64,000 bases of DNA, from contig NZ_WKJI01000002.1 of NCBI RefSeq assembly GCF_009674685.1, forward strand, positions 496,001-560,000, in the 5' to 3' direction. Made by a program: the position numbers and the translations under genes. Within the stretch, counting starts at the first letter, position 1, and the number at the start of each line of letters is the position of its first letter. Positions 3,949 to 10,251 of the stretch are shown piece by piece. The DNA comes from Pedobacter puniceum (lineage in GTDB: Bacteria > Bacteroidota > Bacteroidia > Sphingobacteriales > Sphingobacteriaceae). Below the pieces are notes generated by a model. That model was not told the origin of the DNA. It saw only the letters and a list, made by a program, of their open reading frames with translations, and did no database searches.

Positions 3949-4275
3949 ATGGAAATTAAAGAAGCACAACAACTGGTAGACAATTGGATTAAAACTACTG
4001 GTGTAAGGTATTTTAATGAGCTCACCAATACGGCTATTTTAATGGAAGAAGTGGGTGAGGTTGCCCGTATCATGTCTCGTAAATATGGCGAGCAGTCTTT
4101 TAAAGAATCTGATAAAAAAGTTGATTTAGGCGATGAAATGGCCGATGTACTTTTCGTATTGATTTGCTTGGCTAACCAAACAGGTATTGATTTAACCGCT
4201 GCATTAGAAAAAAATATGGAGAAGAAAAGTATTAGAGATGCAGACAGACATCGTAACAACGAGAAATTAAAATAA
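3949..4275 (+). CDS. MazG-like nucleotide pyrophosphohydrolase
   Basis: From the ATG at 3949 the protein is 108 residues. An upstream TTG at 3922 is possible but adds a non-conserved tail. It has the all-alpha NTP pyrophosphatase metal motif: EEVGE (Glu33, Glu34, Glu37) and DEMAD (Glu63, Asp66). Such proteins convert (d)NTPs to (d)NMPs and pyrophosphate, removing abnormal nucleotides. It resembles the short single-domain MazG/YpjD type rather than two-domain E. coli MazG. Its stop overlaps the start of the next gene (TAATG at 4273-4277), so translation of the two is likely coupled. Confidence 0.88.
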   Translation: MEIKEAQQLVDNWIKTTGVRYFNELTNTAILMEEVGEVARIMSRKYGEQSFKESDKKVDLGDEMADVLFVLICLANQTGIDLTAALEKNMEKKSIRDADRHRNNEKLK

Positions 4276-4922
4276 TGCAAGACTTCATTAACAAAACCAT
4301 AGCTTTTGTAAAGCAAGAATTACAAGATGCCGAGGCTGGCCATGATTGGTTTCATATAGAACGTGTTTGGAAAACAGCTAAAAACATCGCAGCAGAGGAA
4401 AAAGTGAATTTACTAGTGGTAGAGTTTGCCGCTTTGCTACATGATATTGCCGATGCTAAATTTCATGATGGAGATGAAGAAATAGGACCAAGAAAAGCGG
4501 GCGAATTTTTAAAAACTTTAGCTGTTGATGATGAAACCATTATCCACGTACAGCAAATTATTAAAAACATGTCTTTTAAAGCTAGCTTAGGCGATGTTAC
4601 TTTTACTTCAGCAGAAATGTTGGTGGTACAAGATGCCGATAGGCTAGATGCCATTGGTGCTATTGGCATAGCCAGAGCTTTTACCTATGGTGGCTATAAA
4701 AACAGAGAACTTTACAACCCAGATATTAAGCCAGAGCCTAACCAAAGTAAGGAGGCTTATAAAAAGTCTACCGCCCCAACCATCAACCATTTTTATGAAA
4801 AATTACTCTTATTGAAAGATAAGATGAACACCGCAACAGGCAAAAAATTGGCAGCCCAAAGACATGATTTTATGGTTCAATATTTGACTCAGTTTTATGC
4901 AGAATGGAACGGAGAAAAATAA
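4275..4922 (+). CDS. HD-domain phosphohydrolase (YpgQ/YedJ type)
   Basis: This 215-residue protein has the HD-superfamily motif: HDWFHIERV (His27), then ALLHDIADAKF (His56-Asp57), and a later VQDADRLDAIGAIG holding the last metal-binding Asp. The order and the TYGG...HFYEKLLLLKD C-terminus fit the YpgQ/YedJ subgroup, members of which hydrolyse nucleotides. The start codon overlaps the MazG stop. It is cytoplasmic and probably acts with its neighbours in nucleotide sanitation, but the actual substrate is unknown. Confidence 0.88.
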   Translation: MQDFINKTIAFVKQELQDAEAGHDWFHIERVWKTAKNIAAEEKVNLLVVEFAALLHDIADAKFHDGDEEIGPRKAGEFLKTLAVDDETIIHVQQIIKNMSFKASLGDVTFTSAEMLVVQDADRLDAIGAIGIARAFTYGGYKNRELYNPDIKPEPNQSKEAYKKSTAPTINHFYEKLLLLKDKMNTATGKKLAAQRHDFMVQYLTQFYAEWNGEK

Positions 4923-5382: not shown

Positions 5383-6231
5383 TTAGAGCCATAACCAGCT
5401 AAAATACAGCAACATCATTAAACCACTCATAAGCGTCATACCCATCGCATTTTTAAAAGATGCTGCTTCAACTCGGTTTAAACACTGTTTAAACCACCAT
5501 AAAAAATAGCCTAATATTGGGGAGCAGCATAGGGCAAAAACCCAAAAATTATAGAGTTCATTTTGCCTGTTCCAATAATCAAACATCAGGGCAAAACCCA
5601 AAAAAAATACAAAGCCTGAAAATAAAAAAGAGCCTTTTACACCTAGTAAAAGACTTAAAGTTTTATCGCCACGCTTGCAATCTTCTTCGTGTTGGTACAC
5701 TTGCGTTAACGGATAAGAAGCCCCAATTAAGCAGGAGGCAATCAATCCGGCTTGGATGACATCGGCGTTAAGCCCTAAGTCATATTGACCTATGGCTTGG
5801 TAGCAACTGTAGTAAATAAAAAATCCTTGAAAAATAAAAACCACCAAAAAACTTAAAATAGGATATTTTTTGATGCGGATACGAGGATGACTGTAAGCTT
5901 TAGAAAAAGAATTATAAATGGCAACCGCCAAAGCAAACTCAAAACTCACTAAAAAAGCCATCAATAAACCTGTCCACTCTAAAACATAAGCCGTTACCAA
6001 TAAAGATTTTTGCACTTTTGGAGGTTCTTTTATAAGCGCAATACTGCCTTCATCCTTATCAAAATAGCTATTGTAAGCGTTACTTGCCGGATACACAAAT
6101 AAATGCCAAACTATAAAAACTACTATGGCATTGTAAATGTTAGGATTAGGTACTTCGCTATAAGCAAACAAATAAACAGGAAGCAATAACAAAGAAAAAG
6201 GAAGGCGTAAGTGTAATAAGGTAGACTTCAT
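5383..6231 (-). CDS. UbiA-family prenyltransferase
   Basis: This 282-residue integral membrane protein has about 8-9 hydrophobic helices. The first acidic motif is NSYFDKDEG (Asn54, Asp58, Asp60), and the second is EEDCKRGDKT near residue 185. These bind Mg-prenyl diphosphate in UbiA enzymes, which attach isoprenoid chains to aromatic acceptors. It is transcribed divergently from the type III PKS with only 47 bp between starts, so promoter elements must overlap and regulation is likely joint. The acceptor is plausibly the polyketide made by the neighbouring genes; that link is inference. A menaquinone or heme role is less likely because menA- or cyoE-type neighbours are absent. Confidence 0.85.
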   Translation of the reverse strand: MKSTLLHLRLPFSLLLLPVYLFAYSEVPNPNIYNAIVVFIVWHLFVYPASNAYNSYFDKDEGSIALIKEPPKVQKSLLVTAYVLEWTGLLMAFLVSFEFALAVAIYNSFSKAYSHPRIRIKKYPILSFLVVFIFQGFFIYYSCYQAIGQYDLGLNADVIQAGLIASCLIGASYPLTQVYQHEEDCKRGDKTLSLLLGVKGSFLFSGFVFFLGFALMFDYWNRQNELYNFWVFALCCSPILGYFLWWFKQCLNRVEAASFKNAMGMTLMSGLMMLLYFSWLWL

Positions 6232-6278
6232 TTCTTTGTTATGTTTAGCATGAAGGTAAAAATATTTAATTTTTTTGA

Positions 6279-7382
6279 ATGAGCAGTGTTATATCGACAA
6301 TTGGTACTAGTAATCCATCAAATCAGTTTGCGCAAAGTCGCATACTGGAATTTATGAAAGAAGCACACCAGTTGGATAGCAACCAAGCTCGTAGATTAGA
6401 AAAATTATATCAAGTATCTGGGATAGATTACAGGCACTCGGTACTGCAAGATTTTGGTAAGCAAAAAGGAGATTACAGCTTTTTTGGTAATGATGCTGGC
6501 CTTAACCCCTTCCCTACTACAGCCAGCAGAGGTTTTATATACGAGCAAAATGCTTTACAAATTGCTTTAAAAGCTGTTGAAAATTGCTTAAAACAGCTTG
6601 ACTTTAATCCTCAAAACATCAGTCACTTAATTACGGTAAGTTGTACAGGAATGTATGCTCCGGGTTTAGATATAGAACTGGTAGAAAAACTAGGCTTAAA
6701 GCCCGATACTGAGCGTACTTGTATAAATTTTATGGGTTGTTATGGTGCTTTTAATGCGCTTAAAGTGGCCGATTATATTTGCAGAGCGCAACCTACAGCT
6801 AAAGTTTTAATTGTAGATGTTGAGCTTTGTACCCTCCATTTCCAAAAAGAAAATACTTTAGATAACTGGTTGGCAAATTCTTTATTTGCCGATGGTGCAG
6901 CGGCTGTTTTAGTGCAACATGAAGCGCAAACTGATGATAAACTTTTCCATATCAATTCTTTTTACAGCGAGCTAATTAGCCAAGCAAGAAATGAAATGGC
7001 TTGGCGCATTGGCAATTTTGGCTATGAAATGCAGCTTACCAGCCAAGTTGCTAAACAAATAAGAAGTGGTATTAAAGATATTGCCCAAAAATTATTGAAA
7101 AAAGCCCAATTAGCTTTTGATGATATTGGACAATATGCCATCCACCCTGGTGGCAGAAGAATTTTAGAAGTTTGTGATGATGCTTTTCAGCTCCATCCCC
7201 ACCAAAATGAGCATGCTTATGAGGTATTACGTAATTTTGGTAATATGTCATCGGCAACGGTGCTTTTTGTCTTAGCAGCACTCGGTAAAAAGCTCAAAAC
7301 CAAACAACAAGAAGAAAAAATATTGAGCTTTGCTTTTGGTCCTGGCTTAACTTTTGAAAGTATGGTACTTACATATGCCTAG
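6279..7382 (+). CDS. Type III polyketide synthase (chalcone synthase-like)
   Basis: This 367-residue thiolase-fold protein carries the type III PKS catalytic triad: Cys154 in INFMGCYGAF, His289 in AIHPGG, and Asn322 in NFGNMSSATV. The C-terminal SFAFGPGLTFE matches the GFGPG loop. Such homodimers extend an acyl-CoA starter with malonyl-CoA and cyclise to resorcinols or pyrones without an acyl carrier protein. The product is expected to be an alkylresorcinol- or alkylpyrone-like phenolic lipid. The next two genes, a methyltransferase and an FAD monooxygenase-like enzyme, overlap it and each other and parallel the Streptomyces srsABC arrangement. The substrate is inferred, not shown. Confidence 0.92.
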   Translation: MSSVISTIGTSNPSNQFAQSRILEFMKEAHQLDSNQARRLEKLYQVSGIDYRHSVLQDFGKQKGDYSFFGNDAGLNPFPTTASRGFIYEQNALQIALKAVENCLKQLDFNPQNISHLITVSCTGMYAPGLDIELVEKLGLKPDTERTCINFMGCYGAFNALKVADYICRAQPTAKVLIVDVELCTLHFQKENTLDNWLANSLFADGAAAVLVQHEAQTDDKLFHINSFYSELISQARNEMAWRIGNFGYEMQLTSQVAKQIRSGIKDIAQKLLKKAQLAFDDIGQYAIHPGGRRILEVCDDAFQLHPHQNEHAYEVLRNFGNMSSATVLFVLAALGKKLKTKQQEEKILSFAFGPGLTFESMVLTYA

Positions 7383-8067
7383 TTTTAAACATAGAAGTAC
7401 AGCGTTAGAAATCATGGATGATTTCTCGTTAGACCAACAAGCTATTCACCCGGTTCTAAAAGAGCTGGAAGTCATCAACAAATTGCTAGGCGGTTTTCAG
7501 GTATTTTACAATGCTTTTAAGAAATTACCCATTCAAGATAAAGACATTATTTGCGATTGGGGCTGCGGCGGTGGCGATAGCCTAAAAGTTTTAAAAAAGC
7601 ACTTCCGTAAAAGAAAAATATACCCTCACTTTATCGGGATTGATGCCACACCTAGTGCTATTAGCTTTGCCAAAGCACATCATGAAGCAGAAGATATCCA
7701 CTTTAGTTTGGCTGATGTTTTAGAAGAGCCATTCTTAGCCGAAGAGTTTGATTATGTTATCAGCAGCTTATTTACCCATCATTTTAATGATGATGAATGG
7801 AAGAAACTGGTAGGAAGAATGCTGTACGCTTCTAAAAAAGCTGTTATCATCAATGATTTACACCGTCATTGGTTGGCTTATTATTCTATTGGTTGGCTTA
7901 CCCAAATCTTCTCCAAATCGCCCATGGTAAAACACGATAGTAAATTATCAGTCTTAAGAAGTTTTACCAGAAAAGAGCTGCAAACATTATTAGCGCAAAT
8001 GGGTATTAAGAAGTATAGTATTAAATGGATGTGGGCCTTTCGCTGGCAAATCATCATTTATAAATGA
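7375..8067 (+). CDS. SAM-dependent class I methyltransferase
   Basis: From the ATG at 7375, which overlaps the PKS stop, the protein is 230 residues; a frame extending to 7354 is less likely. Motif I is ICDWGCGGGDSLKVL, followed by FIGIDATPSAISFAK and the SLADVL acidic loop, giving a Rossmann methyltransferase that uses S-adenosylmethionine. The C-terminal region with HRHWLAYYSIGWLTQIFSKS looks membrane-associating, which fits a lipid-like substrate. It is sandwiched between the type III PKS and an FAD oxidoreductase with overlapping codons, so it very likely methylates the polyketide product (O- or C-methylation unknown). Confidence 0.88.
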   Translation: MPSFKHRSTALEIMDDFSLDQQAIHPVLKELEVINKLLGGFQVFYNAFKKLPIQDKDIICDWGCGGGDSLKVLKKHFRKRKIYPHFIGIDATPSAISFAKAHHEAEDIHFSLADVLEEPFLAEEFDYVISSLFTHHFNDDEWKKLVGRMLYASKKAVIINDLHRHWLAYYSIGWLTQIFSKSPMVKHDSKLSVLRSFTRKELQTLLAQMGIKKYSIKWMWAFRWQIIIYK

Positions 8068-9194
8068 GCAAAAAACCAAAAATATTTATTGCCGGAGGTG
8101 GTTTAGCAGGCCTTACCAACGCTATTTTATTAAGCAAAGCAGGCTTTGAAGTTTGCCTTGCCGAGCGTAAATTTTACCCTTTCCATAGGGTTTGTGGCGA
8201 GTATGTAAGCAATGAAGCTTTACCTTTTTTAAAAAGTTTGGGGTTAAACCCCGAGGATTTGCAGGCGAGTAAACTAGAAAAGTTAATTATTGCCTCACCA
8301 TCAGGAAAAACCATTCATGCCCCTTTAGACTTAGGCGGATTTGGCATCAGCCGATACACCTTAGATGAGCAGCTTTACCTCATCGCTAAACAGCAAGGCG
8401 TGGAGTTTCTTTTAGGCGAAAAAATAACGGATATCTATTTTCATGATGAACAGTTTAACATTTCACTAGCCGGAAAAACTTATCAGGCAGATTTGGTGAT
8501 TGGTGCTTTTGGAAAACGCTCTAACTTAGATAAGCAACTCCAACGTTCCTCCTTTTATAAGCGCAGCCCTTATATGGGTGTTAAATATCACGTAAAGTTA
8601 GATTTCCCTAAAGACACCATCCGCTTAGATAATTTTGAAGGTGGTTATTGTGGCCTAAACAGCATCGGTACAGATAGCTATTGCTTATGTTATCTATCAG
8701 AAAATAGGCATTTAAAAAAATACGGTTCTATAGCCGCTGTAGAAGAAGAAGTTTTAAGCAAAAACCCCTTTTTAAGAGAAGTTTTTCGCAACGCCGAGTT
8801 TATTTGGGATAAGCCAGAAACCATTAATGAAATTGCTTTTGAGCGCAAAACATTGATAGAAAACCATATCCTCATGTGTGGCGATACTGCCGGTATGATT
8901 GCTCCACTTTGCGGAAACGGCATGGCTATAGCCTTACACTCGGCAAAAATTTTAAGTTCTTGCATTATTGATATTTGCTATGATGGCATTAACCCAACTA
9001 AAAGAGCCCAACTAGAAAAAGCTTATAGCCAAACATGGCAACAAGAATTTGCGCAAAGGTTATTCATAGGCAGAACCATCCAAAAGCTATTTGGGCAAAA
9101 TCAAATCTCTGAAATGGCTATTACTAGCCTTAACTACTTCCCTAAAGTTTTTTCTTTCTTGATAAGTAAGACGCATGGGAAAGTTTTTAGTTGA
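8064..9194 (+). CDS. FAD-dependent oxidoreductase (geranylgeranyl reductase/monooxygenase family)
   Basis: This 376-residue flavoprotein has an N-terminal dinucleotide fold, IFIAGGGLAGLTNAILLSK, then the FHRVCGEYVS segment found in geranylgeranyl-reductase-type proteins. The second FAD-contact motif is LMCGDTAGMIAPLCGNGMA near residue 270. Its ATG overlaps the methyltransferase stop (ATGA at 8064-8067), so the three genes are translationally coupled. In the comparable srsABC cluster a flavoprotein hydroxylates the phenolic lipid to a quinone. Here the enzyme may do that or reduce an isoprenoid chain added by the divergent UbiA enzyme. It is cytoplasmic or membrane-peripheral. Confidence 0.88.
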   Translation: MSKKPKIFIAGGGLAGLTNAILLSKAGFEVCLAERKFYPFHRVCGEYVSNEALPFLKSLGLNPEDLQASKLEKLIIASPSGKTIHAPLDLGGFGISRYTLDEQLYLIAKQQGVEFLLGEKITDIYFHDEQFNISLAGKTYQADLVIGAFGKRSNLDKQLQRSSFYKRSPYMGVKYHVKLDFPKDTIRLDNFEGGYCGLNSIGTDSYCLCYLSENRHLKKYGSIAAVEEEVLSKNPFLREVFRNAEFIWDKPETINEIAFERKTLIENHILMCGDTAGMIAPLCGNGMAIALHSAKILSSCIIDICYDGINPTKRAQLEKAYSQTWQQEFAQRLFIGRTIQKLFGQNQISEMAITSLNYFPKVFSFLISKTHGKVFS

Positions 9195-9270
9195 GTATGT
9201 ATATCCTAAACTAATAATTTACTATTTTAAGCGTTTAATTTTTTAGCAACTACTATAAAAAACGCTGGCT

Positions 9271-10251
9271 ATGGAACATGAAACACTAAACCGGTTTAAC
9301 AGAATTGTTTCCATATTTATCCACTTACAATCTGGCAGAATTGTAAAAGCACAAGAACTAGCCAAACGCTTTCAAGTAAGTTTACGTACCATTTACCGTG
9401 ATATTAAATCTTTAGAAGCAGCAGGTGTACCCATTAGTGGAGAAGCCGGAATTGGTTATTATTTATTAGATGGGTATAGGGTACCGCCTACCATGTTTAC
9501 GCCTGAGGAAGTTAACAGCTTTGTAGCTTCTGAAAAATTGATGCAAAAGTTTAGCGATAAAAACTTAAGCGCACATTATGAGTCGGCTATGTTTAAGCTA
9601 AAATCTGTACTAAGAGGCCATACCAAAGATAGAGTTGCCATGCTAGAAAATCAGGTTTGGATTAATGCTAGTCATGATGTTTTTAACGACCAAGTGCCTA
9701 ATGCCTTAAATATTTTATTAGATAGCATGGCAGAGAAAAAGCAAGTTGTTATCAACTATCAAAATTTACATGCCGAAGAAATTGTAGAACGTATTATTGA
9801 GCCAATTGGCGTTTTTAACGAAAATAATTTTTGGTATATGATGGCTTTTTGCTTGCTACGGCAAGATTATAGACAGTTTCGTACCGATAGAATATTTGCC
9901 ATCGCTAAAACTGAACATCGTTTTAGTAAAAAACATAGTCCAGAACTTTTAGACGAATACAGAAAAGCTATGGAAGGGCAAAAAGAGAAAACTAAAGTAG
10001 TTATCAGGATTGATAAGGATATTGCCCGTTATTTAAGTACAGGCAGGAAATACTATGGTTTCGTCTCAGAAAAGGTTATCAGAAATAGTGTTGAAATGAC
10101 TTTCATGACCAACGATACACATGAAAGTTTTGCCCGCTGGTTTATGATGTTTGCAGACCGAGCAGAAATTTTAGAACCTGATAGCTTAAAAGAAAGAATA
10201 GCTGAAATAGTATCTCAAATAAAAATTAATATTCCAGAGAGCATCAGTTAA
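9271..10251 (+). CDS. YafY-type regulator: HTH plus WYL domain
   Basis: This is a 326-residue transcription factor. An HTH_11-type winged helix at residues about 8-65 includes QELAKRFQVSLRTIYRDIKSL. A WYL domain at about 150-235 includes WYMMAFCLLRQDYRQFRTDRI, followed by a C-terminal extension. WYL domains bind ligands, often nucleotides or metabolites, and control the DNA-binding part. It lies 76 bp downstream of the PKS cluster on the same strand, so it might be its regulator, but similar WYL genes are common and the link is inference. It meets the next gene tail to tail with a 4-bp overlap. Confidence 0.88.
   Translation: MEHETLNRFNRIVSIFIHLQSGRIVKAQELAKRFQVSLRTIYRDIKSLEAAGVPISGEAGIGYYLLDGYRVPPTMFTPEEVNSFVASEKLMQKFSDKNLSAHYESAMFKLKSVLRGHTKDRVAMLENQVWINASHDVFNDQVPNALNILLDSMAEKKQVVINYQNLHAEEIVERIIEPIGVFNENNFWYMMAFCLLRQDYRQFRTDRIFAIAKTEHRFSKKHSPELLDEYRKAMEGQKEKTKVVIRIDKDIARYLSTGRKYYGFVSEKVIRNSVEMTFMTNDTHESFARWFMMFADRAEILEPDSLKERIAEIVSQIKINIPESIS

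Follow-up and report, generated by a model that had tools for sequence, protein, structure and literature searches.

Here, we examined a gene cluster of Pedobacter puniceum that lies in a 64,000-nucleotide stretch of contig NZ_WKJI01000002.1 (positions 496,001 to 560,000; hereafter, the window) and combines genes for a type III polyketide synthase (PKS), a methyltransferase (MT), a flavin adenine dinucleotide (FAD)-dependent oxidoreductase and a divergent protein of the UbiA family. Judging from the relatives of these genes, UbiA belongs to the PKS-MT-FAD pathway: in the comparison with related genomes that the earlier note on this DNA had proposed, genomes with this UbiA also carry the PKS in 60 of 60, 53 of 53 and 79 of 80 cases. 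The gene set probably makes a lipid ring compound with an isoprenoid tail, and we consider it reasonably likely that the four enzymes form a pathway to a membrane lipid that is part polyketide and part isoprenoid, with predicted reactions, reaction order, and chain and prenyl lengths.

Co-inheritance of UbiA and the type III PKS

A sample of 151 genomes from the family to which the window belongs, searched with the PKS as a query and with a UbiA profile, yielded PKS matches in 81 genomes. The match is of the clade type in 56 of these, scoring 275 bits or more in 55 and being divided between two contigs in the remaining one; the other 25 genomes have weaker matches to other PKS types. With the UbiA profile, 53 of the 151 gave a match, all of them among the 56 genomes with a clade-type PKS. 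No more than 1.9 kb separates the two genes in 50 of these 53, a proximity that is more than chance; in the other 3, they are on separate contigs. In the phylum-wide sample of 395 Bacteroidota genomes, with 60 UbiA and 177 PKS matches, all 60 UbiA genomes contain a PKS (the naive hypergeometric value for this co-occurrence, 1.6e-24, is far too small given the relatedness of the genomes). Furthermore, the 26 genomes with UbiA matches of at least 268 bits (next score, 148) are the same 26 with PKS matches of at least 431 bits, a cut-off picked after the fact and with no clear gap beneath it (next score, 417). In these 26 genomes, according to coordinates read by eye, the PKS is adjacent to UbiA in 20, on the same contig 335-720 kb away in 3, and on another contig in 3. 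Finally, a named scan recovered at least 571 stretches with a UbiA relative, the best 80 of which were examined as loci: the PKS is at the locus in 66 and elsewhere in the genome for 13 of the 14 others, the exception being a 2.6-Mb metagenome-assembled genome (MAG; L167). Thus, the pairing of UbiA with the PKS outlasts the loss of linkage. The assignment of UbiA and the PKS-MT-FAD module to one pathway, made in the earlier note, is supported by this strict co-occurrence, and the contrary case that it named, homologues in which UbiA is unlinked and acts in menaquinone synthesis, fails: the unlinked homologues are likewise accompanied by the PKS in the genome, and menaquinone synthesis has a UbiA gene of its own. 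A tblastn search of 72,556 plasmid records with the window UbiA gave no match. One contig filed as an Azovibrio restrictus MAG (L139) bears the Bacteroidota cluster and is probably mis-binned.

The same association is apparent in the PKS tree, which was built by a quick method from the window PKS and 147 others, reduced by identity to 88 rows, and rooted at the midpoint. All 58 UbiA rows fall within a single clade of 62 (Shimodaira-Hasegawa-like approximate likelihood ratio test, SH-aLRT, 96); of the other four members, three lack UbiA and the fourth is from a Psychrobacter plasmid. Two rows of the tree, L170 and L143, have long branches. On the simplest reading of the midpoint-rooted tree, UbiA would have joined this PKS lineage once and been lost at least twice. 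The plasmid row comes from plasmid 5 of Psychrobacter urativorans, which encodes a PKS 48% identical to that of the window together with FAD and MT genes, with no UbiA on the plasmid; nested in the Bacteroidota UbiA clade, this PKS looks like a transfer from Cytophagales. Another type III PKS set of Bacteroidota, found at two loci (L071 and L073), has the order FAD-MT-PKS, with FabA-like and ketosynthase genes after the PKS, and a third locus (L203) on the same branch has a FAD gene and a PKS; all three genomes are without a UbiA of the window's clade. At five more loci (L072, L074 and L200-L202), the type III PKS is followed by an ICMT-family methyltransferase, an arrangement like that of bpsA-bpsB in B. 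subtilis.

Among the 66 PKS-bearing loci, some of which are cut by contig ends, 51 hold all four genes, 7 are without the FAD gene and 8 without both MT and FAD genes. Given that the FAD gene occurs elsewhere in 11 of the 12 tested genomes without an adjacent copy, a core consisting of the PKS and UbiA without the FAD enzyme was rejected. The FAD gene is missing from the cluster at L038 and L042 and seems broken at L093 (2909-4157) and L043 (2861-3982; Pedobacter cryoconitis and a MAG).

The four enzymes and the reactions proposed for them

The PKS (367 amino acids (aa); 6279-7382, plus strand) matches the N- and C-terminal Chal_sti_synt domains of Pfam (88.8 and 84.1 bits), and the catalytic residues assigned to it in the earlier note, Cys154, His289 and Asn322, are borne out by their invariance in 20 aligned PKSs and in all 58 UbiA-clade rows. 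Among solved structures, PKS18 and Steely1 are its nearest. In its sequence, Met251 follows Trp242 by nine residues, the distance that also separates Met293 of ArsC from Gly284, the residue corresponding to ArsB Trp281 (PMC6274091). The pair thus fits ArsB Trp281 and ArsC Met293, a match by spacing and not by alignment with ArsB; Trp at the ArsB 281 position favours resorcinol over pyrone (PMC6274091), and Trp242 is compatible with an alkylresorcinol synthase.

The MT, a predicted S-adenosylmethionine-dependent enzyme (Methyltransf_25, 51.5 bits) kept in 58 of the 80 loci, has an open reading frame (ORF) listed as starting from TTG at 7354, which would overlap the PKS gene by 29 bp. The start is most likely the ATG at 7375, giving 230 aa (7375-8067, plus strand) and an 8-bp overlap, because this fits the lengths of the MT in most relatives (231-242 aa, most commonly 231). 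A 4-bp overlap joins it to the gene for the FAD-dependent oxidoreductase (376 aa; 8064-9194, plus strand; FAD_binding_3, 31.7 bits), which belongs to the aromatic hydroxylase/geranylgeranyl reductase superfamily and is a predicted ring hydroxylase. Its model has a mean predicted local distance difference test score (pLDDT) of 91.4 and is matched by the halogenase PltA (Z 36.2), 3-hydroxybenzoate 6-hydroxylase (4bk1; Z 35.6) and a geranylgeranyl-reductase-like protein (32.2). 3-Hydroxybenzoate 6-hydroxylase converts a meta-phenol into a hydroquinone. The WxWxIP motif of halogenases was looked for in the FAD enzyme sequence and not seen. Similar FAD genes stand beside PKSs in genomes without UbiA (L071, L073, L195, L197-L199 and L203), which makes a role as a prenyl reductase unlikely.

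The UbiA protein (282 aa; 5383-6231, minus strand), a putative prenyltransferase, matches PF01040 with 56.3 bits (cut-off 34.2). Its AlphaFold2 model, based on 50 sequences, has a pLDDT of 94.7 and superimposes on the Archaeoglobus UbiA with dimethylallyl diphosphate (4tq4) with Z 23.8 and a root-mean-square deviation of 3.1 over 263 residues, against Z 14.8 for the best match with a non-UbiA fold. Aligned profile to profile with 12 canonical UbiAs, it gave a clear match (probability 99.2); these 12 were selected from 28 ORFs by a motif I filter, and the 16 dropped include the heme O synthase, a further UbiA of the window genome. Two results speak against close kinship with canonical UbiAs: the profile returned nothing at E<=1 when searched against PDB sequences, and an hhalign comparison with the single sequence of L002, another UbiA of the window genome, aligned only 50 columns (probability 8.7). 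Motif I reads NSYFDKD and motif II QHEED, and all 50 aligned relatives share Asn54, Asp58, Asp60, Gln180, His181 and Asp184. Relative to the pattern NxxxDxxxD, Asn54 and Asp58 are kept, and the position of the third Asp is Gly62, with Asp60 invariant instead. The QxxxD form of motif II supports the description of this UbiA as divergent in the earlier note; the protein has the UbiA fold and probably works like a prenyltransferase, but it is not a canonical member of the family. Another Bacteroidota family (f24) has a weaker-scoring sister subfamily that shares the motif II Gln in all 8 aligned sequences (8 of the 11 ORFs found were used), and its genomes with the sister UbiA have a PKS match in 34 of 34 cases. 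The sister gene (L207-L218) is divergent to one for an unknown protein of about 300 aa, followed by a thioredoxin-family gene, and is not beside a PKS in the stretches examined. Genes of the YceI family occur in 15 of the 80 UbiA loci: 11 between UbiA and the PKS, 2 just upstream of UbiA, and one each at 1.6 and 3.2 kb (the copy at L059 matches PF04264 with 106.4 bits). Solved YceI lipocalins mostly hold isoprenoids, e.g., octaprenylphosphate and ubiquinone-8 (PMC9113575).

We propose that the PKS would elongate a long-chain fatty acyl starter using malonyl units, with aldol ring closure to an alkylresorcinol; the FAD enzyme would hydroxylate the ring to a hydroquinone-type head, oxidisable to a quinone; the MT would methylate an oxygen or carbon of the head in most lineages; and the divergent UbiA would move a prenyl group onto a ring oxygen or carbon. 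This pathway is suggested by the co-occurrence of the genes with and without linkage, the single PKS clade, the retention of the FAD gene elsewhere in the genome, the UbiA fold, the presence of a separate menaquinone UbiA, the Trp242/Met251 spacing and the YceI neighbours in several lineages. It also has parallels, namely, alkylresorcinol formation by PKSs from MT-FAD-PKS operons and O-prenylation of an alkyl-methoxyhydroquinone by a UbiA-type enzyme. A bolder and rather doubtful extension is that the product could be a hitherto unseen redox lipid of Sphingobacteriales and Cytophagales, i.e., a polyketide-headed analogue of ubiquinone with a long alkyl chain and, on the opposite side, a prenyl tail, made with a QxxxD UbiA and carried by YceI lipocalins in some lineages.

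Points against the proposed pathway and alternatives to it

Several observations weigh against this pathway. No product is known for the cluster, and the AgqA-D, SrsA-C and HidA-C systems, discussed below, are likened to it by description, not by sequence. A clade-type PKS is found without UbiA in 3 of the 56 family genomes (G090, G111 and G150), and the MT is without a match in 5 of the 10 genomes tested (L128, L129, L134, L144 and L155), one of which, the MAG L144, is missing the FAD gene as well. The FAD model ties between halogenases and 3-hydroxybenzoate 6-hydroxylase, and the top NCBIfam family for this enzyme, GG-red-SF, scores 95.5 bits, below its cut-off of 158.8. In UbiA, the first canonical Asp of motif II is replaced by Gln180 in 50 of 50 relatives, so that normal Mg-diphosphate chemistry is not assured. 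Finally, Trp242 occurs not only throughout the UbiA clade (58 of 58 rows) but likewise in the ICMT-linked PKSs (5 of 5 rows) and was therefore rejected as proof of a resorcinol product. Since Trp242 alone fails to separate the PKS types in the set compared, and the closest solved PKS is PKS18, an alkylpyrone synthase (PMC8086630), the PKS might make an alkylpyrone, which the MT, FAD enzyme and UbiA would then decorate. We regard this as improbable: the spacing of Trp242 and Met251 and the resorcinol preference conferred by Trp speak for the other ring, alkylresorcinol-type operons have the same MT and FAD partners, and a ring hydroxylase suits a phenol.

The role of UbiA leaves more room for an alternative. 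It might act in the pathway without being an ordinary Mg-dependent prenyl diphosphate transferase, using another donor, transferring another group, catalysing cyclisation or serving as a membrane scaffold. The uniform Gln180, shared with the f24 sisters, points in this direction, as the corresponding residue in the 12 canonical UbiAs is Asp in 10 and Ser in 2 (that of Asp184 is Asp in all 12), and UbiA-fold enzymes with other chemistry exist, for instance, a membrane phosphoribosyltransferase (8j8j) that matches the model with Z 18.0. However, the protein retains Asn54, Asp58, Asp60 and Asp184, its closest structural matches are prenyltransferases, 2 of the 12 other UbiAs have Ser at the position of Gln180, and the YceI neighbours point to an isoprenoid, so that we consider unconventional chemistry unlikely. 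Far less plausible, and in our view very improbable, is that UbiA is an unrelated neighbour, such as a menaquinone enzyme. It is indeed separated from the PKS in 3 of the 53 genomes of the family and in 6 of the 26 of the phylum, but the unlinked genomes still carry both genes, as do all 60 UbiA genomes of the phylum sample, and the quinone pathway is served by another UbiA of the window genome (L002), located beside ubiE/menG and passing TIGR01475 (291 bits; cut-off 180.8). The cluster UbiA itself falls far under all NCBIfam cut-offs (best match 23.3 bits against 226); a menaquinone role was therefore rejected. Prenyl transfer by UbiA in a four-enzyme pathway is thus the reading that we retain.

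Neighbouring genes and known systems

The window genome (3.9 Mb) is very closely akin to Pedobacter glucosidilyticus, and its UbiA shares 98% identity with the copy at the relative locus L091. The local layout described in the earlier note, five ORFs with the PKS, MT and FAD genes overlapping head to tail and UbiA 47 bp away on the other strand, is confirmed by the sequence; the 47-bp gap (6232-6278) presumably holds promoters for both directions. The fifth gene, downstream of the cluster (9271-10251), encodes a WYL regulator (63.2 bits), for which the earlier note had suggested sensing of a pathway ligand. This idea finds no support: a WYL gene was found in 0 of the 80 UbiA loci (matches above 60 bits counted), and the near-identical relatives L035 and L091 have none at the equivalent place. 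The regulator, although a real gene, was rejected as a cluster member and seems to be a local neighbour. Convergent to UbiA on its other side is a gene for a 215-aa protein (4275-4922), which resembles HD-type hydrolases; similar proteins are encoded near the cluster at L046 and L063, and it may be a syntenic neighbour.

From the strictly co-inherited four-enzyme set, which is present in many environmental Bacteroidota, membrane lipids of a class not yet described are predicted for cultured genera such as Pedobacter, Mucilaginibacter, Algoriphagus and Roseivirga. The set also presents a UbiA subclass in which the metal motif is altered and the acceptor guessable. The literature searched, with subscription journals mostly outside it, yielded no functional work on this gene set. 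The order of PKS, MT and flavoprotein genes is that of srsABC in Streptomyces griseus, which is not known to include a UbiA, whereas UbiA is co-inherited in the Bacteroidota cluster. To the earlier note, this addition pointed to a prenylated or otherwise different product; UbiA does extend the set beyond srsABC, but a precedent, a prenylated type III PKS product of Actinoplanes missouriensis, had been missed. The agq cluster of Actinoplanes, reportedly described by Awakawa in 2011, is said to make an alkyl-O-dihydrogeranyl-methoxyhydroquinone and to hold an MT and a FAD monooxygenase as well. With this content, it would bring together the same PKS, MT, FAD enzyme and UbiA, in Actinobacteria rather than Bacteroidota. 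A UbiA-like enzyme of Actinoplanes missouriensis O-prenylates an alkyl-methoxyhydroquinone (PMC3227686; also PMC4044012), and the type III PKS product of Actinoplanes is hydroxylated and prenylated; alkylquinone products are mentioned for SrsA (PMC10896814). The Bacteroidota set seems to be a variant of this actinobacterial combination, possibly a convergent one.

Other known systems share parts of the set. Alkylresorcinols are the products of heterologously expressed planctomycete PKSs, several of which come from MT-FAD-PKS operons, and the paper on them nowhere mentions UbiA (PMC10896814). The hierridin hidABC clusters of cyanobacteria encode the same three enzyme classes, with a prenyltransferase in only one hierridin-like cluster (PMC8086630); both they and the planctomycete operons usually have the order MT-FAD-PKS, in contrast to PKS-MT-FAD in the window. 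The PKS of loseolamycin has a UbiA gene in its vicinity (PMC7587189). Plasmids of Deinococcus and Roseomonas carry annotated PKS-MT-FAD sets with no UbiA close by, and PKS, FAD and MT genes are annotated on the Psychrobacter plasmid. With canonical UbiA, MqnP and DGGGP synthase, the cluster UbiA shares the fold, the N-x-x-x-D of motif I and the second Asp of motif II; it differs by the Gln that takes the place of the first motif II Asp and by its tie to a PKS. Thus, a prenylated type III PKS pathway is a kind already known, and what is new here is its conserved Bacteroidota version, the UbiA subclass and, in some lineages, the YceI neighbour.

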